From a virus: a stretch of DNA of 26,197 nt. Under the pieces are notes generated by a model. The model was not told the DNA's origin. It did not search any database and worked only from the letters and a program-made list of their open reading frames with translations. Position numbers and translations under genes: made by a program. Below, piece by piece: positions 3,907 through 22,706 of the stretch. The DNA lies in IMG/VR virus record IMGVR_UViG_3300026484_000282, positions 1-26,197 of that record, one strand, 5' to 3'. Numbering within the stretch: the stretch's first letter is position 1; each line of letters begins with the position of its first letter.

Positions 3907-4149
3907 TTAAACCCCTACATTGTCTATAATAATATTTGTGCTTCCTCTTACGCATTTTACCCACACTTCATCTCCACCCGAATAACTAAAAATCTCATTG
4001 TTACCCAGCATGAACCCCGCTTCCGGTGTTTCCCCCTTTTTTACAGTCGCCACCTCTACATATTCAAGTCCTCTGTTTTGTATTACAACCACTTCTCCGT
4101 TCCCGACTTTTTGCCAAGTGTTTGTGATTTTTATATTTCTTGTCGCCAC
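3907..4149 (-). CDS. Small beta-rich tail-associated protein (80 aa, GTG start)
   Basis: An 80-residue beta-rich protein starting at GTG (4149) with AAGG six bases upstream. The sequence (ITNTWQKVGNGEVVVIQNRG, later IFSYSGGDEVWVKCVRGS) resembles small phage proteins that put a beta-sandwich on the virion surface, but I cannot place it in a named family. The position between baseplate-like genes and the fibre genes suggests a minor tail or capsid decoration protein. Confidence 0.65.
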   Translation of the reverse strand: MATRNIKITNTWQKVGNGEVVVIQNRGLEYVEVATVKKGETPEAGFMLGNNEIFSYSGGDEVWVKCVRGSTNIIIDNVGV

Positions 4150-4206
4150 AGTAAGCCTTTTTTTATTTAAATAATAAGGGATTAAAAGATTGTTTTTTGG
4201 GAAAAA

Positions 4207-7406: not shown

Positions 7407-8072
7407 TCACTTTAAATCATACCAGATGTTTAAGATAAATTCATTTACAGGGTCTTCCATAGGCTCCGTAAAAGGTTGCACCACTTCTTTAATCCAAAAT
7501 CCTTTATATTCATTTTCGTTTAAAGCATCTAAAAAAATAGTGCTACTTGCTTTTAAGTTGCTAACATCATCATCGCTAACCGTTTTAAAAGTAATTTCCG
7601 AACCATTTATGTTTTCAACTTCCCAAGTTACTAATTTTGTATTATCTTCTTTATAAAAAGTTATTTTATCGTCTGCTTTTACAAATTTGCTCACATCCCT
7701 GTCTGCCGTAACCTTTTTATTGTCTTTATCATAAGCTGTTACTAAAAACCCACCGTAAAGTCTCAAATTGCTTTTGTCTAAATCACTTTCAAGTTCGGTA
7801 TTGCTTCCTGCTTCAAAAAGATATATTTCCTCTGTAGGGGAGGTGGTAAACGAAGCCACATCAAGCCCAAGTGTTAAAACATCAACGGTCGCTTTTATGA
7901 AAAATTTGAAATACCTTTCTCCGCCTATTTCTGCAGTGTAGGGTCTTACAGGCAAAAGCAGATTGTTTAAAACCCCACTTTCAATTAGTGCATCCGTATC
8001 AATGTCATCTCCGTTATTAGAAGGGTCAAACTCATCTATTTTTAAACTTTTATAAAATTCTAAATCCGCCAT
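7407..8072 (-). CDS. Tail protein (221 aa), unknown family
   Basis: A 221-residue acidic, beta-rich protein. Residues ~50-80 and 190-221 (YKGFWIKEVV, EFILNIWYDLK) look like one structural unit, with an inserted domain between about residues 100 and 175 (LVTAYDKDNKKVTADRD, LVTWEVENINGSEITFKT). It is in a tail gene run, three genes after the tape measure position, so a distal tail or baseplate ring role is plausible. No family is recognised. Confidence 0.65.
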   Translation of the reverse strand: MADLEFYKSLKIDEFDPSNNGDDIDTDALIESGVLNNLLLPVRPYTAEIGGERYFKFFIKATVDVLTLGLDVASFTTSPTEEIYLFEAGSNTELESDLDKSNLRLYGGFLVTAYDKDNKKVTADRDVSKFVKADDKITFYKEDNTKLVTWEVENINGSEITFKTVSDDDVSNLKASSTIFLDALNENEYKGFWIKEVVQPFTEPMEDPVNEFILNIWYDLK

Positions 8073-8126
8073 TTTTAGCCTTTTTTGTTTATTTTAGCTT
8101 TTACAGTTTTTGTTTTTTTCCAAAAT

Positions 8127-8504: not shown

Positions 8505-11500
8505 CACATTATCCTTTTAAAATAACTTGCAAGTTGTTTTGCCGTCATTTCATCGCTTTGCATTTCAAAATTTGCTCCATCAGGAAATTTAAAGTTCACA
8601 TTTACCGTATCGCCGCTTGTATTGTTTGCACTTGGCAAATTCCCTACATATCCGCCCGTTGCGAATTTAGGAAGTTTAAAGCTGTTTAACTTTTCAAACA
8701 AATCCGTTCCAAACATACTAACTGCTTCTTTTCTTATAACAAACTCCCCGTCTTCCAAAAGTGCTAAATTCCTATCGCCCCCGCCGTATCCCGGAAGTTT
8801 GCCGCCGTTCGCAAGTTTAATAAGTCCGCCCGTTGCGAATTTAGGAAGTTTGTCTTTTAAAATATCCTGTATTAAAATATTAAGGTTATCCTCGCTTAAT
8901 GTTGCTGCCTGTTTATTGTATTTAAAGAGATTTGCAAATCTGTATTGTAATAAGCCGTCATTTACTCCGTATTTAGTCAAAAATTGTGTAGCCATTATAT
9001 TGTAATCAATTGGTCGATAAGCCGGATTATTTATTAAAGAATATCCGGCTTGTAAATATCTTGGCGTATTATTCACACTGTTTTTAGCAAATCTTTGGAA
9101 ATCTATTTTTATCTCTTCTTTGCTTGGAACATTTAACGTTATTAGTTTGTTATAAAAACTTTTAAGCCTGTTTAAATCCATAACATAATCAAAATCAGGC
9201 GGTAAAACTATACTTTCGTCTATTTGTAATTGCGATAATCTGTTTCTTATCAAATCTTTATATTTATCTACTTGTGCTAAATAATCATTTATTCTTTGCA
9301 CTAAATTATTTACCGTTTCGTCTAATTTTTTAACGCTTTCTTCGTCCGTTTTTAATTTGCTTTGCAGTGTTTTTAATTTGCTTTCGTATTCTTTATATCC
9401 TGCTTCGTCTAACGTTTTACCTTTTATGTTCGCTTTGTAATCCGTAATAGCTTTTTGGTCGTTTTCGTATTTGCTTTTTGTGTCCTCTACTTTTTGTATT
9501 GTGTTTTCAATTTCTTTTTTTTCAGGTCTGTCTGTGCCTCTGAAATGCTCCAAAAGCTCTTTTAACGTGCTTAAATAATCGTCCAATTTACTTATAATAT
9601 CCCCATCGCTATATCCGCCACTACTGCCGCCTGATAAATCCGACAATTGCGTTATAAGTTGTTGTGGTCTTCCTATCTCTACAAGTCCACCCGTTGCAAA
9701 TTTAGGGAGCAGTTTATTGTTTAGTCTATATAAAAAGTCCTCTCCGTAATGTTTAACGGCATCTCTTTTTACTACAAACTCTCCTCTTGTAAGTAAAGCC
9801 GGAACGTCATCGGAGTTTAAAGGGTCATCTCCCGGAATTCTGCCCTGCACTTTTCTAAATCCTGCAATACCCCCTGTAGCGTGGGTTTCTACCGTCTTAA
9901 TGTAATGTATTGTTGTAATTGTTTTAGGAATTTGACTAAGTTTATGTAAAGCCTGTGAAACATCGCTTTTTACTTTTACGGTAGGTTTCAGGTCTTTGGC
10001 TTTTAAATTAACTTTTTTTAATTTTTCCTCAGGCTCTTTTGTATTAGCGTAGAACTTAATAACCTCTTTTTTACCGGTAACCTTGTCGGTAACTTCCATA
10101 ACCGCCGCTAAAACGGGCTTTGTGTCTGCTTCTACTTTAACTTTTGCTTTTGTGTTTTCTACTTTTTTAAGTTCCGCTTTTGCTTTATCCGTATCTACAT
10201 TAACGTCTTTTTTCTGTTTAAGTTTTTCGTCTAACTGTTTAATTTGAGCGTCTAAATTCTTAATCGCTTCTAATGCCGCACTCGTATCAATATCCACTTT
10301 TTTACCCGTAAGCGTTTCGATTAACTGTTTTTCAAGATTCAGTCTTTGCATTTCAAGATTTAGTTGAGCTTTTGTCGCTTCAAGCTCTGTTTTAAGGTTT
10401 TGTATTTTAGCTCGTGCCGCTGCCTCTTCCTGTGCCTTTGCCTTTGCATAATATTCGTTCGTTACGCTCTCAAGTTGTCTTAGTCCCGCTATTGCTGCGG
10501 CGTTTGCCTGCTTTTTGCTAACTATTACCTTGCCGTTTTCTTTTATTTCCGTATTTGCAATAGAAGTCATTAAATTTTCATATTGCGACATATACCTTTT
10601 AGCCTGAGCCAAGTCGCCGTTTCTTATTGCTTCTTTTGCTTTTGCAAGTCTTATTTCCGCCTGTTTTTGTTTATCTAAATATTGCTCATAAGAAGAAGCA
10701 GTTGACATTTTTAAATTATGTATTTTATTTTCGATGTCTTCAATAGCGTTAAGTCTTTCGGTTTCAAGCTGTTTAAGCCTCGCATTAAGACGTGTCTGTA
10801 TATCCGCAATTTTATCCGCAAGGTCTTTTTCTTTACTTTTTAGTCGTTCAATAGCGTTATTATGTAATTCAATTCTTTGCTTGTATTTATCTTTAAATTG
10901 TTTTATTTCCTGTAAATTGTAATATTGTATAATCTCCGCTTTTGCTTTTTCAAAATGCACCGTATCGCCTAAAAGCGTTTTCGCTTTCTCTATTTCCTCA
11001 TCTCTTAATTGTAAAACGGTTTTTGTAGTATCTTTTTCTTTTTGCAATCTGCTATCTAAACTTTTTAAATATTTTTCCTGCTCTTTTGTAAGTTTTTCTG
11101 TCGCCTGTTTTGCTTTTACCGCACTGTCTTTCGTTCCCTCAAACGGTTTTGTGTTTTTTAGTTTGTTTTCTGTCGCTTGTAAAACTTTTAATCTCTCTTG
11201 CAAGGTTGCTAACTGTCTTTTGTATTCATCCGTCTTATCAAGCCCGAGCATTTCATCCCATATGCTGTCGCCGTCTTTAATTTTGTTCTGCAATTCTTTA
11301 ATCTGAGCTTTTGTAGTTTCGGTAAGTTTTTCAGTTTTCTTTTTTAATCTGTCTATCTCATCGCCCGTTAATTTAAATTCTTTCCTCCCGTCTTTAAGCA
11401 CCATTGCGTCTTGCAATTTCTTCATAACGCTTTCAAAATCGGAAGTATTGCTTTGCAATTTTTTTGTTTCGCTGTTAAGCTCTTTTATTTCGTCATTCAT

Positions 11501-12916
11501 TTCATCAAACGCCGCACTTGCCGCTAATACCGCAACAGTTATAGACGCCAATACCGGATTAGCCGCAGCAAGTTCAAGCATTGCCGCACCTAATGCCCTT
11601 ATTTTAGTTATTAATGTTGTTATTACCGCTCTTAATGCACCGTATTTTGCTATTGCCTCAGCACCGATAACCGCTTCCAAAACGGCTTTGGCTTTTGCTA
11701 AACTGTAAAATGCCGCAGTTAACTCCACTATCGCATTAATTAAATGCTGATGTGCATCGTAAAAATCTGTAATATTGCTAACCCCCGCTGTTAAAAGTTT
11801 TAGAAATTCTGTTAATGTGGGTAATAACTGTTGCCCTATCGTTAAAGCAAGTTTTTCTAATGCACTCATTAATGTTTTAAAATTACCTTCAAGCGTATTT
11901 CTCATCTGTTTTGCTATTTTTTCACTTACACCTGCGGCTTTTTTGTTTTTCTCTAATAATTTAGAATAGCTTTTATCAACCTCGCTTAATAAAATTAATG
12001 CGGCTTTTAAGCTCTCCTGCCCGAATATGTCTTTAAGATACGCTATTCTTTGCTGTTGCGTCATATCTTTCATCTTAGCGTTTAACTGCCCTAAAACGTT
12101 TTTAAGCCCTACAAATTTCCCTTTGCTGTCGTATGCTTTTACACCTAATTCCTCTAAGGCTTCTTTTGCTTTTCCGACGGGTGCCGCCAATCTCGTTATT
12201 ACTTGTGCCAAATTTGTTCCGGCAATAGTTCCCTGCAATCCCGCATTACCTAAAACACCTAACGCTGCAGATGTTTCTTCTATGCTTATACCCAAAGAGT
12301 GTGCTGTAGGTGCCGCAAACTTCATCGCCTCACCCAACTGCTGTATATCCGTGTTTGCATTTGTAATAGTGGCACTCATTACATCAACTACCCTTTTCAT
12401 CTCTTCGGCACTTAATCCAAAACCACTCAAAATGTTTGATGAAATATCACTTGCCCTTGCTAAATCCATTTGCCCTATTGTCGCTAAATTTAAAACATCT
12501 GCCGTTGATTTTAATATCTCGTTTGTTTTAAAACCTGCCATCGCTAAATAATTCATACCCTGCACTACTTGTGAGCTGGTATATTCAGTTGAACCGCCAA
12601 GCTCCATAGCCTTTTGCTTCATATTTTCAAGCTGTGCCGCACTTGCTTGAGATACCGCACTGAGTCTTGCTAAGCTTTGTTCAAAATCCGCAACCGTTCC
12701 GATAACGTTCTTAATAACTTCAAATCCTGCATAAGCAGTTACGACTGTTTTTATCCCTTTTGCTATTTTGCTAAATTGTTTTTCTTGTTTTTCTAAATCA
12801 ACATTGCCTTTTTTTACATCATTGCTAAATTTCTTTATTTCATTTTCAAGCTTCTTAATATCCTCAACCGCCTGTTTTGTGTTTGCTAATATCTCAATTT
12901 GTAGTTTTTTATCCAT
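8504..12916 (-). CDS. Phage tail tape measure protein (TP901 type)
   Basis: A 1470-residue protein that sets tail length and helps DNA passage. Residues ~1-60 are coiled coil. Residues ~65-310 match the TP901/PhageMin_Tail domain (ADFEQSLARLSAVSQ, GSTEYTSSQVVQGMNYLAMAG, LGISIEETSAALGVLGNAGL, LKDIFGQESLKAALIL). Residues ~385-465 are Ala-rich and hydrophobic, with membrane-like helices. Long charged coiled coils follow. The C-terminus carries repeats of GEFVxxxxAV...LN...LPKFATGG with short DNA repeats. By the usual ~0.15 nm per residue it would give a tail near 200 nm, if unprocessed. GGGCGG precedes the ATG. Confidence 0.95.
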   Translation of the reverse strand: MDKKLQIEILANTKQAVEDIKKLENEIKKFSNDVKKGNVDLEKQEKQFSKIAKGIKTVVTAYAGFEVIKNVIGTVADFEQSLARLSAVSQASAAQLENMKQKAMELGGSTEYTSSQVVQGMNYLAMAGFKTNEILKSTADVLNLATIGQMDLARASDISSNILSGFGLSAEEMKRVVDVMSATITNANTDIQQLGEAMKFAAPTAHSLGISIEETSAALGVLGNAGLQGTIAGTNLAQVITRLAAPVGKAKEALEELGVKAYDSKGKFVGLKNVLGQLNAKMKDMTQQQRIAYLKDIFGQESLKAALILLSEVDKSYSKLLEKNKKAAGVSEKIAKQMRNTLEGNFKTLMSALEKLALTIGQQLLPTLTEFLKLLTAGVSNITDFYDAHQHLINAIVELTAAFYSLAKAKAVLEAVIGAEAIAKYGALRAVITTLITKIRALGAAMLELAAANPVLASITVAVLAASAAFDEMNDEIKELNSETKKLQSNTSDFESVMKKLQDAMVLKDGRKEFKLTGDEIDRLKKKTEKLTETTKAQIKELQNKIKDGDSIWDEMLGLDKTDEYKRQLATLQERLKVLQATENKLKNTKPFEGTKDSAVKAKQATEKLTKEQEKYLKSLDSRLQKEKDTTKTVLQLRDEEIEKAKTLLGDTVHFEKAKAEIIQYYNLQEIKQFKDKYKQRIELHNNAIERLKSKEKDLADKIADIQTRLNARLKQLETERLNAIEDIENKIHNLKMSTASSYEQYLDKQKQAEIRLAKAKEAIRNGDLAQAKRYMSQYENLMTSIANTEIKENGKVIVSKKQANAAAIAGLRQLESVTNEYYAKAKAQEEAAARAKIQNLKTELEATKAQLNLEMQRLNLEKQLIETLTGKKVDIDTSAALEAIKNLDAQIKQLDEKLKQKKDVNVDTDKAKAELKKVENTKAKVKVEADTKPVLAAVMEVTDKVTGKKEVIKFYANTKEPEEKLKKVNLKAKDLKPTVKVKSDVSQALHKLSQIPKTITTIHYIKTVETHATGGIAGFRKVQGRIPGDDPLNSDDVPALLTRGEFVVKRDAVKHYGEDFLYRLNNKLLPKFATGGLVEIGRPQQLITQLSDLSGGSSGGYSDGDIISKLDDYLSTLKELLEHFRGTDRPEKKEIENTIQKVEDTKSKYENDQKAITDYKANIKGKTLDEAGYKEYESKLKTLQSKLKTDEESVKKLDETVNNLVQRINDYLAQVDKYKDLIRNRLSQLQIDESIVLPPDFDYVMDLNRLKSFYNKLITLNVPSKEEIKIDFQRFAKNSVNNTPRYLQAGYSLINNPAYRPIDYNIMATQFLTKYGVNDGLLQYRFANLFKYNKQAATLSEDNLNILIQDILKDKLPKFATGGLIKLANGGKLPGYGGGDRNLALLEDGEFVIRKEAVSMFGTDLFEKLNSFKLPKFATGGYVGNLPSANNTSGDTVNVNFKFPDGANFEMQSDEMTAKQLASYFKRIM
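8651..8851 (-). repeat. C-terminal LPKFATGG repeats of the tape measure gene
   Basis: A perfect 27-base direct repeat lies at 8651-8677 and 8825-8851, coding KLPKFATGG. A third, diverged copy lies near 9686-9710. On the protein level these belong to longer units with a GEFV-AV-LN-LPKFATGG order (ends near 9680 and 8650). The near identity of two copies suggests recent duplication or gene conversion. Confidence 0.8.
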
Positions 12917-12925
12917 TTCCGCCCT

Positions 12926-13159
12926 TTAAATAGAAAAATTCTCAACTTCTTCTAAATCCACAACCTCTTTTTCTTTCACAAAATCTTTAAAGTCGCTGTC
13001 TTTTGCAAAACGTGCAATTCTGTTAGCAATAGCTATATTTTTAATCATTTCCTCTTTTTCTTCATAGATTTGCTCTATTGCTAAAAGAAAAGCACTTAAA
13101 CCATATTCTTCGGGGTTTGTGTGATTATGGGAGATAAGAAGAGAAATTAGTTTTAGGAT
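12926..13159 (-). CDS. Tail assembly chaperone frameshift extension (gpGT-like)
   Basis: A 77-residue open frame with no start codon of its own, entered by -1 frameshift from the upstream chaperone gene. Reading continues after AAA AAA AAA as ATC CTA AAA, and runs to the TAA at 12926, ten bases before the tape measure ATG. The product of 165 residues (88 plus 77) would be the longer chaperone form. The sequence (LSAFLLAIEQIYEEKEEMIKN and so on) is charged and helical, typical of the C-terminal part of lambda G/T-type and related pairs. Two-product chaperone genes just before the tape measure are almost universal in long-tailed phages. Confidence 0.85.
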   Translation of the reverse strand: MLKLISLLISHNHTNPEEYGLSAFLLAIEQIYEEKEEMIKNIAIANRIARFAKDSDFKDFVKEKEVVDLEEVENFSI

Positions 13160-13422
13160 TTTTTTTTATCGGTTTTGTCTTCTCCTTTTTCGTCAAAATG
13201 TTTAGCGTTTAATTCAAAAAAAGCTTCCTCAACCGCTTTTAACGCTTCAATAGTTGCATTTTCAAGTTCTTCAATAGTGAGATTTGAATTATCGGCAATA
13301 AGCTCGTAATTGTTTTTATACTCTTTGTTTGCAAGTTTAATAAGAGACTTTACGTTTATTTCGTAAAGCTCTACCTCTTTATCATCAAATTCAAGGACTT
13401 TTTTTTCTCTATAAAATTTCAT
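13153..13422 (-). CDS. Tail assembly chaperone (gpG-like)
   Basis: An 89-residue acidic protein that should coat the tape measure during tail assembly. It lies between the tail tube gene and the tape measure gene, where lambda G/GT genes sit. It ends GEDKTDKKKS with a nine-A slippery run (13159-13167) directly before its stop, so ribosomes can shift -1 into a 77-codon open frame. The heptamer A AAA AAA is in the correct register for -1 slippage. AAAGGA precedes the start. Confidence 0.85.
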   Translation of the reverse strand: MKFYREKKVLEFDDKEVELYEINVKSLIKLANKEYKNNYELIADNSNLTIEELENATIEALKAVEEAFFELNAKHFDEKGEDKTDKKKS

Positions 13423-13431
13423 TTATTTCCT

Positions 13432-14196
13432 TTACGCCAAAACTTCTTTAACCAAAAACTGCTGTCCCTCAGGTCTTGTAGTGTCTTTAAGCACTTTTCC
13501 TTTAAGTGTAACTTTCTGAATATCCTCAGCACTCTTAAGTGCAAAATCTCCGTCAAGTGAGAGGTTTGCTCTAAATATTTCAGTCTTAGACGGCTTTCCG
13601 TGAAGCGGTTTAGAAATAAATCTTAACGCCACCTCCTGAGATGTTTTGTTAAGCGATGTAAACGTTCCAATTTTAACTGCGTCGCAGTCAAACGTTACTT
13701 TTACATCTTTGTCAACTAAAACTCCGTCTTTTGCAATTTCAACCGTTCCGAATTCATAATCTACGCTGTAATCAACTCCTTCTTCTGCTGCAACGTCTTC
13801 GCTTCCGTCATTGTAGGTAACGACAACATTTTTAACTTTTCTTTTCCCAAGCTCATATACCGCACCTGCCGCCGCACTTGTAATATCCACCTCTAAACCT
13901 GTCTCACTCGCTTGTTTAACTTCGTTGTATTCCCCGCTAAATGCAAGGGCTAAGGTTGTAGGGTTTAAATCGGCTGTTTGAATGCTTATCTCTGCACTTA
14001 CTGCCTTTGTAACCTCCAAGTCGGTTGTAAGGATAGTGCCCTCGCTGTTTTGGTGTTCTACCTTATCAACCTTGAAGGATACCGTAGCACTCTCAGTCTG
14101 TCCGAAATACCTGAAATTGTCTTCACCCGCCAATTTTACATAAAGCTCTCCACCGCCGATATAATAGTTATCCGCAAAATTTCTGTTAACCGCCAT
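13432..14196 (-). CDS. Major tail tube protein
   Basis: A 254-residue beta-rich protein between the capsid and tail chaperone genes. Start MAVNRNFADNYYIGGGELYV. The C-terminal part, NLSLDGDFALKSAEDIQKVTLKGKV, matches the end of tail tube proteins of siphophages. The middle (residues ~95-165, KVKNVVVTYNDGSEDVAAEE) looks like an inserted repeat-type domain that could face outward on the tube. AAGGAG precedes the start. Confidence 0.85.
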   Translation of the reverse strand: MAVNRNFADNYYIGGGELYVKLAGEDNFRYFGQTESATVSFKVDKVEHQNSEGTILTTDLEVTKAVSAEISIQTADLNPTTLALAFSGEYNEVKQASETGLEVDITSAAAGAVYELGKRKVKNVVVTYNDGSEDVAAEEGVDYSVDYEFGTVEIAKDGVLVDKDVKVTFDCDAVKIGTFTSLNKTSQEVALRFISKPLHGKPSKTEIFRANLSLDGDFALKSAEDIQKVTLKGKVLKDTTRPEGQQFLVKEVLA

Positions 14197-14206
14197 TGTT
14201 CACTCC

Positions 14207-15181
14207 TTATTTGGTTACGATTTTTACAAATCTCTGTTGTTTGGTCTGGAATTTTTTCTCCCAGTTAGTGTCTTTTGCTAAATCTGCAAGCGTCGGACTC
14301 ATTCCCGATTTTCTCCAGCTCCAACCTACCGGGTGTAATACAAACCCCTGTCTGCTTATAACGGTTGTATCTCCGCTTCCTTTTCCTGATAGAGGGTTTC
14401 TGTGAAGTTCAATTAAAGGCATATCTCCGCCAAGCTCTTTTTGAGCGAATGCAAAAATACCTCTTTGTGCGATAATTGATGTATAACGTTTGTTTCCGTC
14501 TTTGTCTGTATCAACCGGCATTAAGTCATTTACCGTTACTTTATAATTTCCATACATTTCAATAGGTTTTGCTCCCTCTTCGCTTGGCTGAATAACCTCG
14601 ATTAAGTTTTGTTTTTTCAAATCCGCATAAATTTTAGAATGCACAAACATCTCTTCAAATTTATCCTGATGATCACCAAGCAAAGACACACCGTCGATTA
14701 TTACACTTGCACCGATGGTATCATTAACCTCAAGCGTTAAATCAGTCCCCGCTTTTTTGGAAATGCCCACTAAAATATTAATCATTCTTCTTTGTAAATC
14801 CCTGGCCCAGTAATTACCGATAACATCCCTAATTACTTTTGCCGGGTCGCTGTCTCTTGCTAAAAGTGCCGCAAGATGTGAATATTTATAAGCTTTAGAA
14901 TAAAGCCCAAGCACCGCAAACATATTACTCCAAGCAAGTTTGTTTGTAGTAATTTCGTCATCGCTGTCGTCCATCGCCTCAGGTTCTGTGTAATCAGGCT
15001 CGTCTATATAAGGCATTTCAAATCTACTACCCGCTTTTGCAGCATTTACTGTGCTTTGTAAATCGGGACTTGTAATAATTAAAGGTGAATTTAATATATT
15101 TTTAAGTTCAGGTGCTTCGTTTAAGATGTCGTTCGTCCACAAAGTCGCCTGAAACAAATCCTGTAATTTAATTTTAGGCAT
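14207..15181 (-). CDS. Major capsid protein (HK97-fold, probable)
   Basis: A 324-residue protein following the scaffold gene. Features typical of capsid proteins: a GSRFEMPYIDEPDY N-terminal arm region, WARDLQRRMINILVG in the spine helix, and the segment FVHSKIYADLKKQNLIE followed by YTSIIAQRGIFAFAQ, as in phage coat proteins. No protease gene or N-terminal delta domain is visible, so the scaffold must be a separate protein, which the preceding gene supplies. AAGGAG precedes the ATG. Confidence 0.88.
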   Translation of the reverse strand: MPKIKLQDLFQATLWTNDILNEAPELKNILNSPLIITSPDLQSTVNAAKAGSRFEMPYIDEPDYTEPEAMDDSDDEITTNKLAWSNMFAVLGLYSKAYKYSHLAALLARDSDPAKVIRDVIGNYWARDLQRRMINILVGISKKAGTDLTLEVNDTIGASVIIDGVSLLGDHQDKFEEMFVHSKIYADLKKQNLIEVIQPSEEGAKPIEMYGNYKVTVNDLMPVDTDKDGNKRYTSIIAQRGIFAFAQKELGGDMPLIELHRNPLSGKGSGDTTVISRQGFVLHPVGWSWRKSGMSPTLADLAKDTNWEKKFQTKQQRFVKIVTK

Positions 15182-15191
15182 TTACTGCTCC

Positions 15192-15800
15192 TTACTTTAA
15201 TTTTTTTAATAACTTTGCTGTTAAGGTATCTTCTTTAAATCCTGTCCCGCTGTTGCTTCCGGCACCGCTCCCCTCGTTTCCTTTTGCTTTCAAAAGGTGC
15301 GGTTTGCTTTCAAAAAATTCCTTAATACCATCATCAAGGCTTTTTCCGTCTTTAAACTTAACTTCACCGTCGATTACATCAACTCTTTGCTTAATAACCT
15401 CCGCCACAACCTCAGGGTCGATTACTTCGTAAGAGCCTATCGCTTTGCTTAAAGCGTTTTCAATTCTTAAACTTTTGCTTGTAGCCTCAAGCTGTTTTAA
15501 TTTGTTTGTTAATTCCTCTTTTTCTTTTTTTTGAGCCTCAAGCTCTTTAACTAATTCTTTTTTACCCTCTTCTTTTGCCTTAGCAATTCTCTCATCAAGG
15601 CTTTTTAACTGCTCTTCAAGCGAATTTTTAGAGTTTGCAACCTCTTCGTAGGTCTGACTTAGCTCTTTATACTTTACTCTCCACTCCGCTGCTTCGTCTC
15701 TTAGTTTTTTTAATTCTGCACCTAAATCGTTGTCGATTTCTTTTGCCGCTTCTTCACTGATTTTTCCTGCCTCAAGCAGTTTTTGCAATATTTTTAACAT
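15192..15800 (-). CDS. Capsid scaffolding protein
   Basis: A 202-residue protein with a coiled coil over about residues 25-115 (AEWRVKYKELSQTYEEV, LEEQLKSLDERIAKAKEE, LKQLEATSKSLRIENAL), a small region around residues 118-168, then a Gly/Ser linker (GNEGSGAGSNSGTG) and a basic tail ending LLKKLK. A coiled-coil body with a basic C-terminal hook that binds coat protein is the classic plan of phage scaffolds. It lies directly before the major capsid gene. GGAGG precedes the start. A divergent plus-strand gene block begins on its other side. Confidence 0.85.
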   Translation of the reverse strand: MLKILQKLLEAGKISEEAAKEIDNDLGAELKKLRDEAAEWRVKYKELSQTYEEVANSKNSLEEQLKSLDERIAKAKEEGKKELVKELEAQKKEKEELTNKLKQLEATSKSLRIENALSKAIGSYEVIDPEVVAEVIKQRVDVIDGEVKFKDGKSLDDGIKEFFESKPHLLKAKGNEGSGAGSNSGTGFKEDTLTAKLLKKLK

Positions 15801-15900
15801 TTACACCTCCCGTGTTTTGCTAATTGTAAAATCTTTAAGGCTCATTTTTTGGAAAAAACCGCAACACTTAAAAGATAAAATAAACTAAAAAAGGCGGAAA
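15801..15900. promoter_or_regulatory. Divergent control region between scaffold and connector genes
   Basis: One hundred bases between two genes that start in opposite directions. On the minus strand TACAAT (15828-15823) lies 23 bases before the scaffold start, a plausible -10 box, with no clear -35. On the plus strand AAGATAAAAT (around 15871-15880) could serve as a -10 for the portal block. Both are only sequence likenesses. Promoters must be here or close, because the block 15901-18310 cannot be transcribed by the main minus-strand operon. Confidence 0.35.
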
Positions 15901-16200
15901 ATGATTTATTCGTATGAAGACGAATTTTTAATCGGGGGTGTAGATACGATAGAGCTTGAAAACATAGAAGCCAAAAAATACAATTTTGTCCTTAATAAGC
16001 TAAACATTGACGATAATTATTATCTTGAAAAACTGACTAAATCCCTTGTATATATGCACCTTGCAAAAATGCAACTTGAAAGCGAGGGAATGAAAGCGAA
16101 ATATGATGTGTATAAAGCCGAATATGCACATTTTTTCAATCTTGCGAAAAATAATAACTCGATTATAAACATTAAAAACATCCCTATACAAAGGGGTTAA
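15901..16200 (+). CDS. Head-tail connector-like protein (99 aa)
   Basis: A 99-residue mostly helical protein (LEKLTKSLVYMHLAKMQLES, YDVYKAEYAHFFNLAK) ending IPIQRG. This size and helical makeup resemble gp6/gp15-type connectors, which sit on the portal and receive the tail. It opens the plus-strand block with AAGGCGG before the ATG. Two bases separate its stop from the next gene. The call comes from the neighbours, which are tail completion, gp10-like and portal proteins. Confidence 0.55.
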   Translation: MIYSYEDEFLIGGVDTIELENIEAKKYNFVLNKLNIDDNYYLEKLTKSLVYMHLAKMQLESEGMKAKYDVYKAEYAHFFNLAKNNNSIINIKNIPIQRG

Positions 16201-16201
16201 A

Positions 16202-16585
16202 ATGATTGACATCGTTCCTGTCTTACACAACGTAAAAGAGCTGATACAAAGCCTTAATATTTACAAAAGTGTTAAACTCGGTCTTGAAAAGGGAGCAGAC
16301 AAAGCGATTAACTGCCCTTTTGCAAGAATTATCGTAGATGAGATTGAACACAGGGGAGCTTTGATTGATTTGCATTTAAGCATCGTTATAGCTTTTAATA
16401 CAAAAAACGACTATGAAAAACTGTATGAGGAATTTTTTACAACCGAATACACTACTAAAATGTCGCTTTTCAAACTACCTTACAAAATAGAACTTATTAC
16501 GTCTATTACAGATGAGGACAGACTTGTTAATCTTAAAGCCGGAATTATTAAATTTAAGATAATAGGGCTTTGCAATGCGAATTAA
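16202..16585 (+). CDS. Tail completion/terminator-like protein (127 aa)
   Basis: A 127-residue alpha/beta protein, with a helix near the start (VLHNVKELIQSLNIYKSV), a hydrophobic strand region (LIDLHLSIVIAFNTKND) and a final strand (AGIIKFKIIGL), similar in order to gp17/gpU-type tail terminators. Such proteins cap the tail tube and join it to the head. It overlaps the next gene by 11 bases. The call rests on fold order and neighbours. Confidence 0.6.
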   Translation: MIDIVPVLHNVKELIQSLNIYKSVKLGLEKGADKAINCPFARIIVDEIEHRGALIDLHLSIVIAFNTKNDYEKLYEEFFTTEYTTKMSLFKLPYKIELITSITDEDRLVNLKAGIIKFKIIGLCNAN

Positions 16586-17021
16586 GTTTTCCTCAACAAA
16601 AGAGATATTTGAAACCCTTGATAAAATAACTGACACATCACAGATGATTAAAAACGTAACTGCGGCAACACATAAAGAGGTTAAAAACCAAGCTAAAAAG
16701 CATTTTATTAAAGGAACGCTGCACCGAAACATCTTAATGAAAACAAAAGGCGGTGCGGGTATCGTCTGGATAGCCGATGACGATATGCTTGTCAGCTGGA
16801 AAAGTAAAAGGATAAATTATGCGACTTTCGTTTTATTCGGAACCCGTCCGCATTTAATCTGTCCTAAAAACAGAAAATATTTAAGGATTTTTTCTAAACT
16901 CGACAGATTCAGATTTGATAACAAATGTGTCCACCATCCGGGTTATGAGGGCGACGACTTTTTACACAAAGCGGCAAAAAAAGTATTTGAAAATTTAGAT
17001 AAACTGATTAAGGAGAATTAA
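16575..17021 (+). CDS. HK97 gp10-family tail/neck protein
   Basis: A 148-residue protein with the HK97 gp10 family pattern: INYATFVLFGTRPHLICPKN followed by KYLRIF, then CVHHPGYEGDDFLHKAAKKVF. The FGTRPH and HPG-FL-A parts are the recognised family features. Its family is a neck or tail completion component needed for head-tail joining. It overlaps the upstream gene by 11 bases, and its TAA overlaps the portal ATG as TAATG. Confidence 0.85.
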   Translation: MRIKFSSTKEIFETLDKITDTSQMIKNVTAATHKEVKNQAKKHFIKGTLHRNILMKTKGGAGIVWIADDDMLVSWKSKRINYATFVLFGTRPHLICPKNRKYLRIFSKLDRFRFDNKCVHHPGYEGDDFLHKAAKKVFENLDKLIKEN

Positions 17022-18310
17022 TGGACTTATCAACTGCTACAAAAATATGGGAATTTGCAAACGAAGCGTATGAGGGAAGCGGAGGATTTTTAACAGGCGA
17101 ATACATAGACAAATACCCCCGTGAAAGCGACGAAAAGTATGAAGAAAGGCAAAAAATAGCCTATTACACAAACATTTTCGCAAGTAAAATAAACAGATAC
17201 ACAGGTTATCTTTTTAAACAGACGCCTACCCGTAACAGCTCAAACAACTTAATAAGAATGATTTTTGACGACGTAAATAATAAAGGCGACAGTATAGACG
17301 TTTTTATGTCTAATTTTGCAAAACACGCAAAAGTCAGAGGCGTTAATTTATTGCTTGTAGATATGCCTAAAAACATACCGGCTACACTCGCTGAACAGAT
17401 TGACAGCCGCTCACTGCCTTACTTCACCGAAATTGCACCTGAGAGGCTTGTAGCTTTTAAACTCGATAACACAGGCAAGTTTGAATATGTAGCTTTTTCT
17501 GATGTTATAGACAACTCTACAATGCAAAAGCAAGATATAAAAAAAGTTATAAGATACTACGATAAGCAAAGCTGGAAGATATTAGACGCCGAAGATACCG
17601 ATAAAGTAATCGAAAGTGGAGAACACAATCTCGGAATATGCCCTGTGTTAATCTTCTCCGAAACGGGCGAATTCCCCGCAACAGGAGAATTTACGCAAAT
17701 CGCCGCACTTGCAAAGAGGCATTATAACCTACAAAGCGAACTTGACGAAATACTAAGGGGACAGACTTTTTCTATCCTTACACTTAATGCCGATACCGCA
17801 AGTGATGTAGAAGTAAAACTCTCTACCGACAACGCAATAATTTACGGCAAGGAATTCAATAAACCCGAATACATCGCTCCCCCTGCGGCACCAGCTGAGA
17901 TTTATCAACAGAAAATCAAAGACATTGAAGCTCAAATTGATAAAATAGCCTTTGATATATCTACAAACGAAAAACAAGAAAGCGGCATTGCACTAGATAT
18001 TAAGTTTCAAGGTCTTAACGCCTCTTTATCAAATTTTGCTCTAAGGCTTGAAGATTTGGAACTGAGGGCATTTGATGTTGTATGCAGGTATCTTAATATC
18101 AAAAACGATGTCGATATTTTGTATCCTAAAAACTTCAATATCATCGACATTGAAAAAGAAATCGGAATATTAAGCGAAATGAAACAGCTTGTAAATTCTC
18201 CGACATATTTCAAATTAAAAGCCCTTCAGATTATCAGTAACGACCTTAGCACTATTGATGTTGATAACTTTGATGAAATTTCACAGGAGATTGAGGATAG
18301 TTTTAAATAG
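17021..18310 (+). CDS. Portal protein (DUF4055-like)
   Basis: A 429-residue protein, probably the twelve-fold portal ring through which DNA is packaged. The N-terminus EYIDKYPRESDEKYEERQKIAY with a following helix, GYLFKQTP, and ITEIAPERLVAFKLD-type segments match DUF4055 portals. Residues ~295-350 carry the long helix region (IEAQIDKIAFDISTNEKQESGIAL). It is the last gene of the plus-strand block. Terminase large subunit is ~3 kb away on the other strand; usually the two genes are adjacent and co-directional. Confidence 0.85.
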   Translation: MDLSTATKIWEFANEAYEGSGGFLTGEYIDKYPRESDEKYEERQKIAYYTNIFASKINRYTGYLFKQTPTRNSSNNLIRMIFDDVNNKGDSIDVFMSNFAKHAKVRGVNLLLVDMPKNIPATLAEQIDSRSLPYFTEIAPERLVAFKLDNTGKFEYVAFSDVIDNSTMQKQDIKKVIRYYDKQSWKILDAEDTDKVIESGEHNLGICPVLIFSETGEFPATGEFTQIAALAKRHYNLQSELDEILRGQTFSILTLNADTASDVEVKLSTDNAIIYGKEFNKPEYIAPPAAPAEIYQQKIKDIEAQIDKIAFDISTNEKQESGIALDIKFQGLNASLSNFALRLEDLELRAFDVVCRYLNIKNDVDILYPKNFNIIDIEKEIGILSEMKQLVNSPTYFKLKALQIISNDLSTIDVDNFDEISQEIEDSFK

Positions 18311-18328
18311 ACCACCCACTGCGGCGGA

Positions 18329-18357
18329 AAATCTTCCTATAAGGTAGGTAGAGATTT
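18329..18357. terminator. Candidate bidirectional terminator hairpin between convergent genes
   Basis: AAATCT (18329-18334) pairs with AGATTT (18352-18357), and inside it CCTA (18336-18339) pairs with TAGG (18345-18348). It lies between the portal gene and the convergent minus-strand gene. On the minus strand it continues AGATTTTCCGCC with a short T run; on the plus strand no T run follows. Weak alone, but placed where a terminator is needed. The adjoining 18311-18328 is unusually GC-rich and holds no gene that I can see. Confidence 0.35.
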
Positions 18358-18363
18358 GCATAA

Positions 18364-18534
18364 TTAGACTGATTCAACTTTTTTGGATTTCTTTTTCTCT
18401 TCTTTTATTCTTTTTAAATCTTTTTCAAGTTCTCTTTTTATAGTCTCTTCATCAGCTAAATTACGGCTTTCTAAATCGATATAAAGAAATTTTATTTTTT
18501 CTTCTCTTGTAAATCCGTCTAATAAACTTGCCAT
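18364..18534 (-). CDS. Small charged protein (56 aa), unknown
   Basis: A 56-residue protein starting MASLLDGFTREEKIKF and ending in a Lys-rich helix (RIKEEKKKSKKVESV). The ATG lies one base after the stop of the acidic 91-residue gene; ribosome site AGTGG is weak. It is the last minus-strand gene before the inverted block. Charge and size do not fit a known phage family. It could be an orphan small capsid-associated gene or part of the putative toxin locus. Confidence 0.55.
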   Translation of the reverse strand: MASLLDGFTREEKIKFLYIDLESRNLADEETIKRELEKDLKRIKEEKKKSKKVESV

Positions 18535-18535
18535 T

Positions 18536-18811
18536 TTAAGCCACTAACAAAATATGCTCATTAATATAATTTTTTAACCATTTAATTTCATTTTCTACTA
18601 ACGGATCTTTTTTTTCTATATTTACTTTTTCTAAAATAGAATTTAGCTTTGTTAGCAAATCATCAAAATACTCAGCTTCTTTTTCACTTAAACTACTGCT
18701 ATCAATTTTTTCTAAAACCGGTCTAATTTCCCAAATATCATAAAAATTTACTTCACTTGGTATTGTTTTTAAGAGAATTGTAAATTCTTTTAAAAGTTTG
18801 TTGTAGTTCAT
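18536..18811 (-). CDS. Putative immunity protein for the MuF-linked toxin (91 aa)
   Basis: A 91-residue acidic, all-helical protein (LLKEFTILLKTIPSEV, EKEAEYFDDLLTKLNSILEKV, LVENEIKWLKNYI). It overlaps the 3' end of the MuF gene by 59 bases in another frame, with GGGG seven to eight bases before the ATG, so translation is coupled. Immediate downstream position, small size and acidity are typical of immunity genes of polymorphic toxins. No immunity family is recognised, so the role follows from position and the toxin call. Alternatively it is just an unknown minor head gene. Confidence 0.55.
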   Translation of the reverse strand: MNYNKLLKEFTILLKTIPSEVNFYDIWEIRPVLEKIDSSSLSEKEAEYFDDLLTKLNSILEKVNIEKKDPLVENEIKWLKNYINEHILLVA

Positions 18812-21251
18812 TTTTTACCCCTTTTATTATATTATCGGCTTTTTTATGGACATCTAAAAAATGAGGCATATTCTCATCAATTTTATAACTTGTCATTAAA
18901 TCGCCTTCTTCATTAAAAATCACTGCCCAATTATTTATTTCCGCTTCAAAATATATATTATCCCAACTCTTTTTATATATTGCAATATTAACTTTTTCAC
19001 ACTCAGATAAACATCTTAAAGTTTTTTCCAAATAATCAAATTCATTTTCTATATGCCCTAAACCTTTTCTTTTTTCTATATGTGTTAAAAATTTTTCTTT
19101 ATTTCTCCACAACTTCTCAAAACTCTCAATTGCTTTTTCTTTTGAACTAACATCAAAATTTTCAAACTTCTTTAAAATAGCTTCTTCATACTTTTTCATA
19201 AGACTATTATACTCCTTACCCTCTAAAATGTCAACATACTTTTTAATCGGATATTTAGGTCTTATAGTATTAAAAATCTCTTCAACATCCTCACCGTTTT
19301 TAAATCGCACAAGCTTCTCTCGGCTCCCGAGTATCTCAATCTGTTTTTTCTCGCTAAATTTACTCATCGTCTCTTTAACTGCCGTTTTCCAACTTTTACG
19401 TTTACCTTTTACTTTTTTGTAGTAAGGCGTATAAATGCAGTAACAGTTACCACTAAAACAAGTTTTTCCGTTTCTTCTAACCCATAAAATATTATATTTT
19501 TCAAGTTCTACACAATAAACCAAATCATTATACTTAACCTCTTTAATTTCTAAATTACTCACATTTGCATTTTTGCTTCTTTTAAGTCTTATTACCCAAA
19601 TATCTTCATTTATTGTATATTTCCCATTTCTAAATTCAATTTCTTTACCTTTCACTTTTTGCAAGTAAAAACTTGGCTGATAACCGCATTTTAAAATAAG
19701 TTCTCCTAAATCATCCGCTAACCTCTTGCTTGAAGTATAAAAAAGATATTCAGGTTTGTTTTTATATCCCTTAAAATCTTTTTGAGGTCTTATATATCCA
19801 TCGCAACTAACAAAAGCCTCTAAAAACTTCCATAAATATTTAGTATCTAATTCTTTTATTTCTTTCGGAATAAATTTATCTTTTGCTTTACCAAATTGCA
19901 TTAAATATGCACCAAAATTACCACTAAACCCTACATAACCTTTTGCATAATAAGGATTAAAACCTAATCTTTCAATAACTTTATAAATTCTTTCTTGATT
20001 ATCTTGTTGTCCTATCTGAATTTGATAATGTTTCTTTCTCTTTGTAACGCTACCATCACTTAACCAATATCCCATAAACTCACAAAAAGCCATCGTTTCA
20101 AATTCAAATTTATCTATTTTAATTGTTTTTACATCTATACCATCCCAAAAAGCAGTTCTTGGAATTTTAAACTCTGTATTATTGCATTTGTCAGCCTCAA
20201 CAAATTCAAATTTGTTTACTCTTTTTCCGTTTTTTGTCACTCTTTTATAGACCGCCATATTATGTTTATTGGTAACCAATAAATCGAAATGTTTATGCTT
20301 GAAGCTAATCATTCTATCATTATTTAACCAACAGACAAAATTTTTAGCTTTTATAAATTCAATTTTTCTATTTTCAGGATTAAAACTCAAAAATTCTTCA
20401 TCTCCTTTCAAATCTCTAAAAAATTTCCATCCCTCATTTGTGTAAACTTCTGTATCTTTATCATAACAATGCGGATGAAGTGGTAAAGTTCTCATCTCTC
20501 TTTTCGGAATTACTCCCCGTCCGTATCCGACATCAAGGTTTGCGTAAAAATCGCAAATGTCTGTTTTTTTATGTGCGGGGGACATTTCAAACTTAACAAA
20601 CTCAACTTCATCATCTTCAAGCATATCTTTAGCTCTTTTACTCATAAAAGCCCTGTGCGTTTCGGTTTTTGCAATTCTGTTTGCATAATATCTCATTTTT
20701 TCGTGGTAAGCGGTATTTAAAAGCTTTTGAAGTTCCTCATCGGTAAATGTATCCATTTTTCTTATTAAGTCTTTATACGCAATTCTTAAAGGCTTTGTTT
20801 TTAACTTTTCAATTTGCTTCATTATTTCATCATCTCTTTTTTCAAGTGCTTTTAATAGATATTTCGGTAAAACTTTTTTAGCTTTCATTGTCTCATCTCT
20901 AAAATCATAACCCTCATAAATTTTTAAGGCAATTTCCCTAATTGTTTCTTTTGCTTTAATTCCTTCATATAGGATTTTGGTAATCATCTTTGAAATGTCT
21001 TTTGCATTTTTATACAAAACATCACTAAGCATAACAGGAGTAATTGCAATTTGAGGATTTGTATTTACAAAATAAAAACTCCCGAGCTGTTTATAAAGTT
21101 CATCTTCAATCTGCTTTTTAACCTCTTCATTATATTTCGCAAGGTAAAAATCAACCATCTCCCCAAGCGTTTTTTTATTCCACTCCGGTCGATTTCGGTA
21201 TTCGTGCAACACTTTTTTTAAAAGTTCCTCCGCCTGTTTTTTAAAATCCAT
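18753..21251 (-). CDS. MuF / SPP1 gp7-like head morphogenesis protein, intein-containing, with C-terminal putative BECR RNase toxin domain
   Basis: The primary product is 832 residues; removal of the intein (262-602) leaves 491. Extein residues ~1-261 and 603-660 form the MuF/gp7 head protein: TETHRAFMSKRAKDM, a CDFYANLD segment, and the HPHCYC motif, split by the intein. The C-terminal ~170 residues are not needed in ordinary gp7 proteins. Residues ~715-805 (FLTHIEKRKG, GHIENEFDYLEKTL, WAVIFNEEGDLMTSYKID) resemble BECR-fold RNases of phage toxins: a conserved His in the first helix, basic residues nearby, and a terminal T-S-Y strand. This matches MuF polymorphic toxins. AGGAG precedes the start, which overlaps the Mor-like gene. 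Confidence 0.85.
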   Translation of the reverse strand: MDFKKQAEELLKKVLHEYRNRPEWNKKTLGEMVDFYLAKYNEEVKKQIEDELYKQLGSFYFVNTNPQIAITPVMLSDVLYKNAKDISKMITKILYEGIKAKETIREIALKIYEGYDFRDETMKAKKVLPKYLLKALEKRDDEIMKQIEKLKTKPLRIAYKDLIRKMDTFTDEELQKLLNTAYHEKMRYYANRIAKTETHRAFMSKRAKDMLEDDEVEFVKFEMSPAHKKTDICDFYANLDVGYGRGVIPKREMRTLPLHPHCYDKDTEVYTNEGWKFFRDLKGDEEFLSFNPENRKIEFIKAKNFVCWLNNDRMISFKHKHFDLLVTNKHNMAVYKRVTKNGKRVNKFEFVEADKCNNTEFKIPRTAFWDGIDVKTIKIDKFEFETMAFCEFMGYWLSDGSVTKRKKHYQIQIGQQDNQERIYKVIERLGFNPYYAKGYVGFSGNFGAYLMQFGKAKDKFIPKEIKELDTKYLWKFLEAFVSCDGYIRPQKDFKGYKNKPEYLFYTSSKRLADDLGELILKCGYQPSFYLQKVKGKEIEFRNGKYTINEDIWVIRLKRSKNANVSNLEIKEVKYNDLVYCVELEKYNILWVRRNGKTCFSGNCYCIYTPYYKKVKGKRKSWKTAVKETMSKFSEKKQIEILGSREKLVRFKNGEDVEEIFNTIRPKYPIKKYVDILEGKEYNSLMKKYEEAILKKFENFDVSSKEKAIESFEKLWRNKEKFLTHIEKRKGLGHIENEFDYLEKTLRCLSECEKVNIAIYKKSWDNIYFEAEINNWAVIFNEEGDLMTSYKIDENMPHFLDVHKKADNIIKGVKNELQQTFKRIYNSLKNNTK
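19446..20468 (-). other. Intein with LAGLIDADG homing endonuclease in the MuF gene
   Basis: A 341-residue in-frame insert from Cys262 to Asn602. It has block A (CYDKDTEVYTNEGWKFF), block B with TxxH (DLLVTNKHNMAV), two LAGLIDADG motifs (FMGYWLSDGSV at ~392-402 and FLEAFVSCDGYI at ~476-487), block F (DLVYCVELEKYNILWV), and block G ending CFSGN followed by Cys+1. Splicing would restore HPHCYC. The penultimate residue is Gly, where most inteins have His. The LAGLIDADG part should cut an intein-free allele and promote spread of the intein. Confidence 0.93.
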
Positions 21252-21519
21252 TTAAACTCTCCTGTTCCGCAGTTATTATTCTTACCCGGCTTACGCTTTT
21301 ATCGAATATGCTTGCAAGCTCCGCTATTGCCTCCCCTCTGCTTATTCCCGCCGCTCTCATCTGCTTGTATAAAGTTCTAATCTCTTCATATTCGCTCTGT
21401 TTTTTCCTAAAATAAATCCGCCATCCCGCAAATCTTTTCAAAAATTCTTTAATCTGTTTTTCGTTAAGCCCGATTTCTTTTAATTCATTTATCACATAAA
21501 ATTCGTTTGCCTCTATCAT
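21241..21519 (-). CDS. Mor-like DNA-binding protein (92 aa)
   Basis: A 92-residue protein similar in layout to the Mor/C activators of Mu-like phages: AGWRIYFRKKQ as the short strand before the DNA-binding part, then a helix-turn-helix (GISRGEAIAELASIFDKSVSRVRII). Mor activates middle transcription in Mu, but here the gene sits between terminase large subunit and the head gene in a terminase-type phage, so its target is unknown. It might act on late promoters, including that of the inverted block. ATGA overlap with terminase; CTGGAG as ribosome site. Confidence 0.65.
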   Translation of the reverse strand: MIEANEFYVINELKEIGLNEKQIKEFLKRFAGWRIYFRKKQSEYEEIRTLYKQMRAAGISRGEAIAELASIFDKSVSRVRIITAEQESLNGF

Positions 21520-22706
21520 ATCAGCTCCAGTTTAAGGGATTTTGTTTTACCCGATTTTGCAATATAAGGAGTTAAAGCGTAACGCATAGCGTCCATTGCA
21601 TCGTCATTTAGCTTTATAGGCTCATCTAACGTATTTCCGTCTTTATCTTCTTTCCAAGCGTATAATTCAATTTCTTTTAAAATATTCACACTTCTTTTTG
21701 TGATGTGAATATTAAAATTCTTAACAGTGTTAATCCCTTCAAATACGGCTTTATTCGCTTTGTCTATGTTAAATCCCGCCGCTTTCCATTCTTTTATCAA
21801 ATCAGGTCTTGCACTGTCTGCATATATCTGTATTCTTTTAGCCCAAGACATATTTCTTTTAGCCCATTCAACCACTTTCGGATTTTCCCAGCCCTGCCTG
21901 TAAAACAATTCATCTACATATAAATTTTTGTTATCAATTCTTACATGAACGATTGCATAAGGGTGGTTAAATCCGAAGTCAATACCGATATATTCTTTTT
22001 CAAAATACTCAGGCATTTTGTCTATTGTTTCGTATTTAGGATAAATAAAACCTTTAAGAGTTCCCCACTCCCCTAACGCATAGACTTTATAATATTCGTA
22101 ATTGTCTCTTTTTAGCCTTTCCATCACGGCTCTATATTCGCCGTCAATAAAAGGGTTATCAAGGTATATTGTTTTTAAAATAAACGTATCGGGAGGCGTA
22201 AAATCAAAAAACTTTTTCTTTATCCAGTGCTGAGCCGATACGGGGTTAAAAGTTATAATTATCTGTTTGTAGTGCTTAGTTTCGCCTCTTAGCCTCAAAT
22301 CCAGCTGGTCGAAATCCCCCTCTTTAAGCTCCGTGGCTTCCTCTACCCAAATACCCGTAATCCCCGCAATGGATTTTATCTTTTCGGGGTTATCCATTCC
22401 GAACATTACGATTTTATTACCGTTTAAAAGACATTCTATCGACATATTCGTTTCGTTTATTTTAAATTCTTCATCAAGCCCGAGCTGATAAATTAAATCC
22501 TTAAACAAAGCAAAGACACTCTCTCTTAATGTCCTTGCGACTTTTCTGACTACTAAAAATTTATGAGGAGTTTCGCTAAGCATTCGAAGGAGCATTTTTT
22601 GAGCGGCGACATAAGACTTCCCGCTCCCAGCCCCGCCGTATAACACTGCATAACGATTTTTACAGGTTAGAAAATCTTTATACGCTTTACTTACTTTCAG
22701 GTTCAA
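21516..22706 (-). CDS. terL: Terminase large subunit (PBSX-type)
   Basis: A 396-residue DNA-packaging motor. The N-terminal ATPase has Walker A GGAGSGKS (24-31) and Walker B-type GIWVEEA (118-124, Glu122/Glu123). The C-terminal nuclease has IGIDFGFN (Asp243), IYADSARPD (Asp297) and DDAMDAMRYAL (Asp368/369/372), the RNase H-like metal-binding residues. Translation starts at TTG (22706), with AGGTGG about eight bases upstream; there is no ATG. The start lies 20 bases inside the small terminase gene, so translation is coupled. Confidence 0.96.
   Translation of the reverse strand: MNLKVSKAYKDFLTCKNRYAVLYGGAGSGKSYVAAQKMLLRMLSETPHKFLVVRKVARTLRESVFALFKDLIYQLGLDEEFKINETNMSIECLLNGNKIVMFGMDNPEKIKSIAGITGIWVEEATELKEGDFDQLDLRLRGETKHYKQIIITFNPVSAQHWIKKKFFDFTPPDTFILKTIYLDNPFIDGEYRAVMERLKRDNYEYYKVYALGEWGTLKGFIYPKYETIDKMPEYFEKEYIGIDFGFNHPYAIVHVRIDNKNLYVDELFYRQGWENPKVVEWAKRNMSWAKRIQIYADSARPDLIKEWKAAGFNIDKANKAVFEGINTVKNFNIHITKRSVNILKEIELYAWKEDKDGNTLDEPIKLNDDAMDAMRYALTPYIAKSGKTKSLKLELI

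Follow-up and report, generated by a model that had tools for sequence, protein, structure and literature searches.

An inherited portal and neck gene block antisense to the capsid genes, with a putative two-way late promoter, in relatives of the Nitratiruptor phages

The window analysed here, a metagenomic viral contig that is the whole of a 26,197-bp IMG/VR virus record, carries all phage genes on the minus strand except four plus-strand ORFs at 15901-18310. Is such an antisense block real, how did it arise, and how might it be expressed together with the rest of the late genes? The initial annotation had reported four head-tail genes on the plus strand amid minus-strand late genes, and both the ORF list and the AT skew, which flips from about -0.2 to +0.15/+0.24 at 16001-18000, bear this out. 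The canonical arrangement, in which portal is in line with terminase, scaffold and capsid, was not found in the window.

The inverted operon begins with a 99-aa all-helical neck protein (neck99, 15901..16200), followed by a 127-aa tail terminator (16202..16585), a 148-aa HK97-gp10-like/Neck1 protein (16575..17021; phrog_5, E=1.6e-9) and, as its last gene, the 429-aa portal protein (17021..18310; phrog_145, E=6.4e-69). The tight internal coupling claimed earlier was seen as an 11-base overlap and a TAATG junction, while the first gap is 1 base (16201) and not 2. To the left, the block diverges as described from the head scaffolding gene (15192..15800, minus strand; phrog_206, PF06810), which opens the capsid-tail operon and is separated from the block by a 100-bp spacer (15801..15900); the SPP1 gp13-like major capsid protein (MCP) is encoded at 14207..15181 on the minus strand (phrog_247, PF20036). 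The right junction is convergent, with a 53-bp gap (18311..18363) between portal and the minus-strand packaging run. The block does not directly face the MuF head morphogenesis gene (18753..21251, minus strand; phrog_1657, PF14528), which carries a LAGLIDADG intein, as minus-strand ORFs of 56 aa (18364-18534) and 91 aa (18536-18811) precede it. The large terminase gene terL (21516-22706) is on the minus strand, the same as capsid. The gene order within the block indeed differs from what a mere reversal of the usual order would give.

The window portal was 60% identical to the '44 kDa structural protein' of phage NrS-1, while its match to DUF4055 was weak. The phrog_5 family of the 148-aa protein is annotated 'tail completion or Neck1'. 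For the 127-aa protein, an AlphaFold model (pLDDT 88) searched with Foldseek matched lambda gpU, T5 p142 and the P74-26 neck with probability 1.00 and E values of 1e-5 to 1e-6; the tail-terminator fold agrees with the 'completion' label given to it before. The 99-aa protein was modelled as a helix bundle (pLDDT 75), for which Foldseek found no significant PDB structural match, and sequence searches of solved structures with the neck99 and terminator profiles returned nothing meaningful. The fold search settled the terminator alone and not neck99, which on its modelled helices is a plausible connector/adaptor candidate; its family is kept in the block of approximately 58 loci. All four block genes had dN/dS values of 0.03-0.15 in comparison with L002/L003, indicating purifying selection and thus working genes.

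In order to find relatives, about 100 loci were gathered by scanning viral and genome collections, and all ORFs of these loci were searched iteratively with profiles made from genes of the window, NrS-1 and MW202423. Loci holding portal plus scaffold or capsid were scored, the strand being judged against capsid or, failing that, scaffold. Portal was antisense to capsid or scaffold in 86 loci, which are related loci and not independent samples, some being repeats of one contig or prophage; the inverted portals formed 53 clusters at 90% identity and 23 at 60% identity. All scorable close portal relatives were inverted except one (L114). For SSU5 and L029 the scoring was manual, based on annotation and a weak scaffold hit, while L062, L063, L066 and L067, in which portal follows terL on the same strand, were left unscored with the capsid gene outside the fragments. 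Two records from the scan are mentioned in their own right: in G003, an Epsilonproteobacteria MAG, portal is split over the contig ends C10/C58 (profile positions 1-248 and 199-425), and L012 (JALVUY010000103.1) is a phage contig of the clade in a Methanocaldococcaceae (archaeal) MAG, probably by binning error.

The cultured Nitratiruptor phages NrS-1 and NrS-3 carry this inverted block between the same neighbours, the portal match of NrS-2 likewise lay on the minus strand of its record, and prophages on three single contigs of about 1.8 Mb (L047-L049) shared the layout. The window has the order of the NrS-type clade, scaffold, then neck99-terminator-gp10-portal, then MuF-TerL. NrS-2 and NrS-3 virion DNA was assembled as circles at 102x and 68x, and the complete genomes are present in their hosts as prophages (PMC9723563), so assembly error is excluded for these relatives. 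An assembly or binning artefact, which could be suspected of a metagenomic viral contig, is hardly conceivable as an explanation, given that the same junctions recur in cultured phages, in single-contig genomes and in numerous independent assemblies; the misassembly first suspected was not confirmed.

A portal tree of 95 rows, with SH-aLRT calculated by the quick method and with long outgroup branches, placed all inverted rows on one side of a single branch (SH-aLRT 99), and the window portal was inside the supported antisense clade (SH-aLRT 99). Far relatives (n=7, portal identity <= about 26%) had the usual co-directional order, and in Tunturi_4, HTVC112P, SSU5, DSL-LC06 and Nitrincola 1M3-16 portal, scaffold and capsid were on one strand. 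The plasmid collection yielded distant phage-plasmid portals only, at about 24% identity. The tree requires one inversion, and two changes once L114 is scored. Locus L114 (G403) carries terminase-portal and, about 12 kb away, gp10-neck99-terminator-scaffold-capsid, all on one strand; as it is nested in the inverted clade (SH-aLRT 99.8), its co-directional order represents a return. Apart from this one nested lineage, the relatives share the inversion, cultured phages included. On the sequence evidence, the inverted block is a real, stable and inherited layout. As a separate observation, in L125-L127 (G403, 52 kb) portal and neck genes are back on the capsid strand with MuF now opposite, and portal adjoins terL, with tail-fibre-like genes then following.

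Inside the clade, two main internal orders were observed, neck99-terminator-gp10-portal in the window, NrS and vent phages and portal-gp10-neck99-terminator in the more distant half, both of which keep the block antisense. A third arrangement (L087, L089, L115 and L120) had portal antisense and gp10, neck99 and terminator after the tail genes on the capsid strand, and in L050 the capsid gene was antisense to portal but a scaffold-like ORF was on the portal strand. The MCP of the window was 13-31% identical to other MCPs of the clade. These data bear on whether the orientation is a frozen accident, that is, a single inversion without function that persisted only through the difficulty of relocating essential genes whose promoters work. 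A single origin demands no repeated selection, and L114 is a viable return to the co-directional order; however, sub-clades differ in internal order, and capsid genes have diverged or been exchanged, whereas portal stayed antisense in 86 loci, and the promoter pair described below holds a fixed spacing. We regard a frozen accident as a serious contender falling somewhat short of an even chance. That the block is a site-specific invertible segment switching portal expression, as its sharp edges might suggest, is very improbable: long inverted repeats were absent (the best edge pair, 15836-15853 and 18853-18870, is 18 nt with 83% complementarity), no recombinase was recognised among the window genes checked, and none of the 86 loci showed the opposite orientation with matching flanks, nor did the loci lend support to the two coexisting orientations considered at first.

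The 100-bp spacer was examined for the separate late promoter that the initial annotation had held to be implied, along with independent transcription of the block. Support came from a predicted divergent -10 pair, TAAAAT for the portal/neck operon (15876..15881, plus strand) and TACAAT for the scaffold-capsid-tail operon (15823..15828, minus strand), between which lies a shared core, TTTTTTGGAAAAAA (15845..15858), at a distance of 22 nt from the -10 on the capsid side and 23 nt from that on the block side. The pattern TTTT(GG/CC)AAAA-N17-20-TAnnnT had 5 matches in the window compared to 0.22 in shuffles (0/100 as high), and four of the five preceded phage gene starts. Two of those were in the divergent spacer, one per direction; further minus-strand copies were TTTTGGAAAA-N19-TAAAAT at 8091..8125, before gene 7407-8072, and TTTTCCCAAAA...TATTAT at 4171..4205, before gene 3907-4149, the fifth match being the reverse reading of this last site.

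In most close relatives the spacer is about 100 bp long and alignable. The inner edges of the divergent -10 hexamers were 46-48 bp apart in 18/18 spacers read (47 in 15/18), with the core at a fixed place, whereas each other -10 pair distance occurred in 1-7 of the 18. In 2000 mononucleotide shuffles of these AT-rich spacers the mean was 6.4/18 and the maximum 15, a comparison that is not a strict probability, the 18 spacers being from related loci. The NrS phages showed the same -10 geometry with a G-run core instead of T4GGA4, indicating that the recognised sequence drifts. Visual inspection of spacers from the more distant half of the clade (L010, L023-L028, L060 on) revealed no conserved core, and in several of these loci the called starts overlap at the spacer position. 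In L022 a C5-cytosine methylase gene (8907-9905, minus strand; PF00145) is inserted between gp10 and portal, accompanied by an additional divergent promoter pair of this kind, which suggests that the predicted promoter element is modular. At the place where L022 carries the methylase, L003 shows a gap of 342 bp that contains the same core. The divergent spacer of NrS-1 (L008 23366-23401) contains an inverted repeat, ATTTGTGAAGT...ACTTCACAAAT, and TTTGTGAAG occurs 6 times in NrS-1 compared to 0.7 expected; the repeat was rejected as a shared element, with two spacer copies that are only partly kept in NrS-3 and L049.

Promoters of Campylobacterota depend chiefly on the -10 element and AT-rich upstream DNA. 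The spacer could hold a back-to-back pair of conventional sigma-70-type promoters that are backed by AT-rich upstream DNA and have no activator in common, and T/A-rich stretches flanking the core and -10 hexamers close to TATAAT fit such an arrangement. We consider it possible but on the unlikely side, as both the GG/CC core and the exact 22/23-nt spacing are seen again at the solitary late promoters 8091-8125 and 4171-4205, and the host assembly shows no enrichment of the full pattern. A 1.5-Mb Nautiliaceae assembly gave 3 pattern matches, equal to the reversed-pattern control, and 2 of them were inside a phage contig; by this count the late-promoter pattern is not a host promoter class. A generic sigma-70 scan was not above chance. 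The core itself, nearly symmetric in A/T, could serve as an AT-rich upstream element and not as a site for an activator.

Taken as a whole, the block is likely an inherited portal/neck operon that forms a rightward unit of its own, and one two-way late promoter would switch it on at the same time as the scaffold-capsid-tail operon. The window phage is probably a siphophage with a host in the Nautiliaceae (Campylobacterota). Its genes would form three units: early and packaging genes on the minus strand from 26133 down to about 18364; neck, tail terminator, gp10 and portal on the plus strand at 15901-18310; and scaffold, capsid and tail on the minus strand from 15800. The second and third units would start back to back from the putative promoter in 15801-15900, where both directions appear to share one core between the divergent -10 hexamers. 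A late regulator of the phage, or RNA polymerase itself, may recognise this core, so that the gateway and shell operons fire together; no activator for the core was identified. We infer transcription from the predicted sites, a shared activator and insulation from sequence features, the last in the sense that the inverted block may shield the capsid operon from packaging-gene read-through. No convincing (bidirectional) terminator was found in 18311-18363, where the weak hairpins were no stronger than those of shuffles, and the convergent gap of NrS-1 and NrS-3 is only 2-3 bp, so read-through or collision is possible. A bolder proposal, which we hold to be doubtful, is that a phage-encoded activator on the single core couples both promoters or fires them alternately, thereby fixing the portal/neck to scaffold/capsid ratio for head assembly, in which case the 46-48 bp spacing would be the conserved control element of the clade, evolved apart from P2.

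A portal out of line had been held to be exceptional. It is so with respect to the usual order, but P2-like phages already have portal antisense to scaffold and capsid. The divergent pP/pO late operons of P2 (Peduoviridae) have in common with the window a portal that is antisense to and divergent from the scaffold-capsid operon, scaffold and capsid being O and N in P2. An activator site is annotated in the P2 record (NC_001895) at 3057-3087, with TSS 3016 for P,Q on one side and TSS 3127 for O,N,M... on the other. For the P2-like phage Smp131, PP' and PO' were predicted as one 18-bp site that is used in both directions (PMC3931495). By analogy with P2, a two-way late promoter would be a workable mechanism. 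However, the P2 large terminase (P) runs with portal whereas terminase and MuF of the window are on the capsid strand, the P2 tail terminator R is in the capsid operon whereas terminator and neck genes of the window run with portal, and P2 is a myophage while the NrS relatives are siphophages. The Ogr-type motif TGT-N12-ACA had no site in the spacer and no enrichment in the window, and no Ogr-like CX2CX22CX4C zinc-finger protein was found in the window, a contig that may be incomplete. Divergent portal/capsid operons are therefore not new in kind; compared to P2, the window differs in phage lineage, in the genes that make up the inverted operon, in having its terminase on the capsid strand, in the site and in how deeply the layout is conserved. 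NrS-1, NrS-2 and NrS-3 resemble the window in the genes present, their order and the inverted orientation, with NrS-1 and NrS-3 read throughout, but differ in the G-run promoter core and the early region. The window shares with the SPP1-type head/neck module a gp13-like capsid, scaffold, MuF, portal, gp10-like protein and tail terminator, but those co-directional relatives that were checked carry portal, scaffold and capsid on a single strand. A description of the inverted block in NrS-type phages was not found in the open literature; in the 2022 NrS paper (PMC9723563) 'portal', 'opposite' and 'orientation' are absent and 'invert' occurs only within 'invertebrates'.

The near-universal collinearity of portal, scaffold and capsid in tailed phages could thus be broken once and then stayed broken across a wide clade, in which internal gene order was reshuffled while orientation was conserved. 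The predicted late promoter is a concrete and testable one in phages of deep-sea vent Campylobacterota, for which cultured phage-host pairs exist, and would be an independent parallel to the divergent late promoters of P2. Annotators should not take such blocks for assembly errors; the NrS records label portal merely '44 kDa structural protein' or 'structural protein'.

Several neighbouring observations were made. In L002, the sequence between portal and MuF folds in a way that suggested a tRNA, which was rejected when ARAGORN reported none in 19 loci. The MuF intein lies at about residues 259-601 of the ORF, right after a conserved HPH motif; MuF of the close relative L004 (IMGVR_UViG_3300026488_000035) is intein-free (HPHCYCVYTPYY), and L075 (14564-16672) seems to hold an insert at the same site (HPHCLPGDALIT...HNCRC). 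The capsid, portal and terminator genes of L004 are about 92-97% identical to those of the window, while its TerL (12690-13886) is of a clearly different type from that of the window, with dN about 0.7; by sequence comparison, the terminase is replaced beside a conserved inverted block in L004. This contig, also binned in a Nautiliaceae MAG (L011), carries at 15636-18961 (minus strand) a type IV CRISPR effector set, in which PADLOC identified Csf3/Cas5 (4e-31), Csf2/Cas7 (4e-53), Cas11 (8e-9) and Csf1/Cas8 (2e-25), accompanied by a CysH/PAPS-reductase-like gene.
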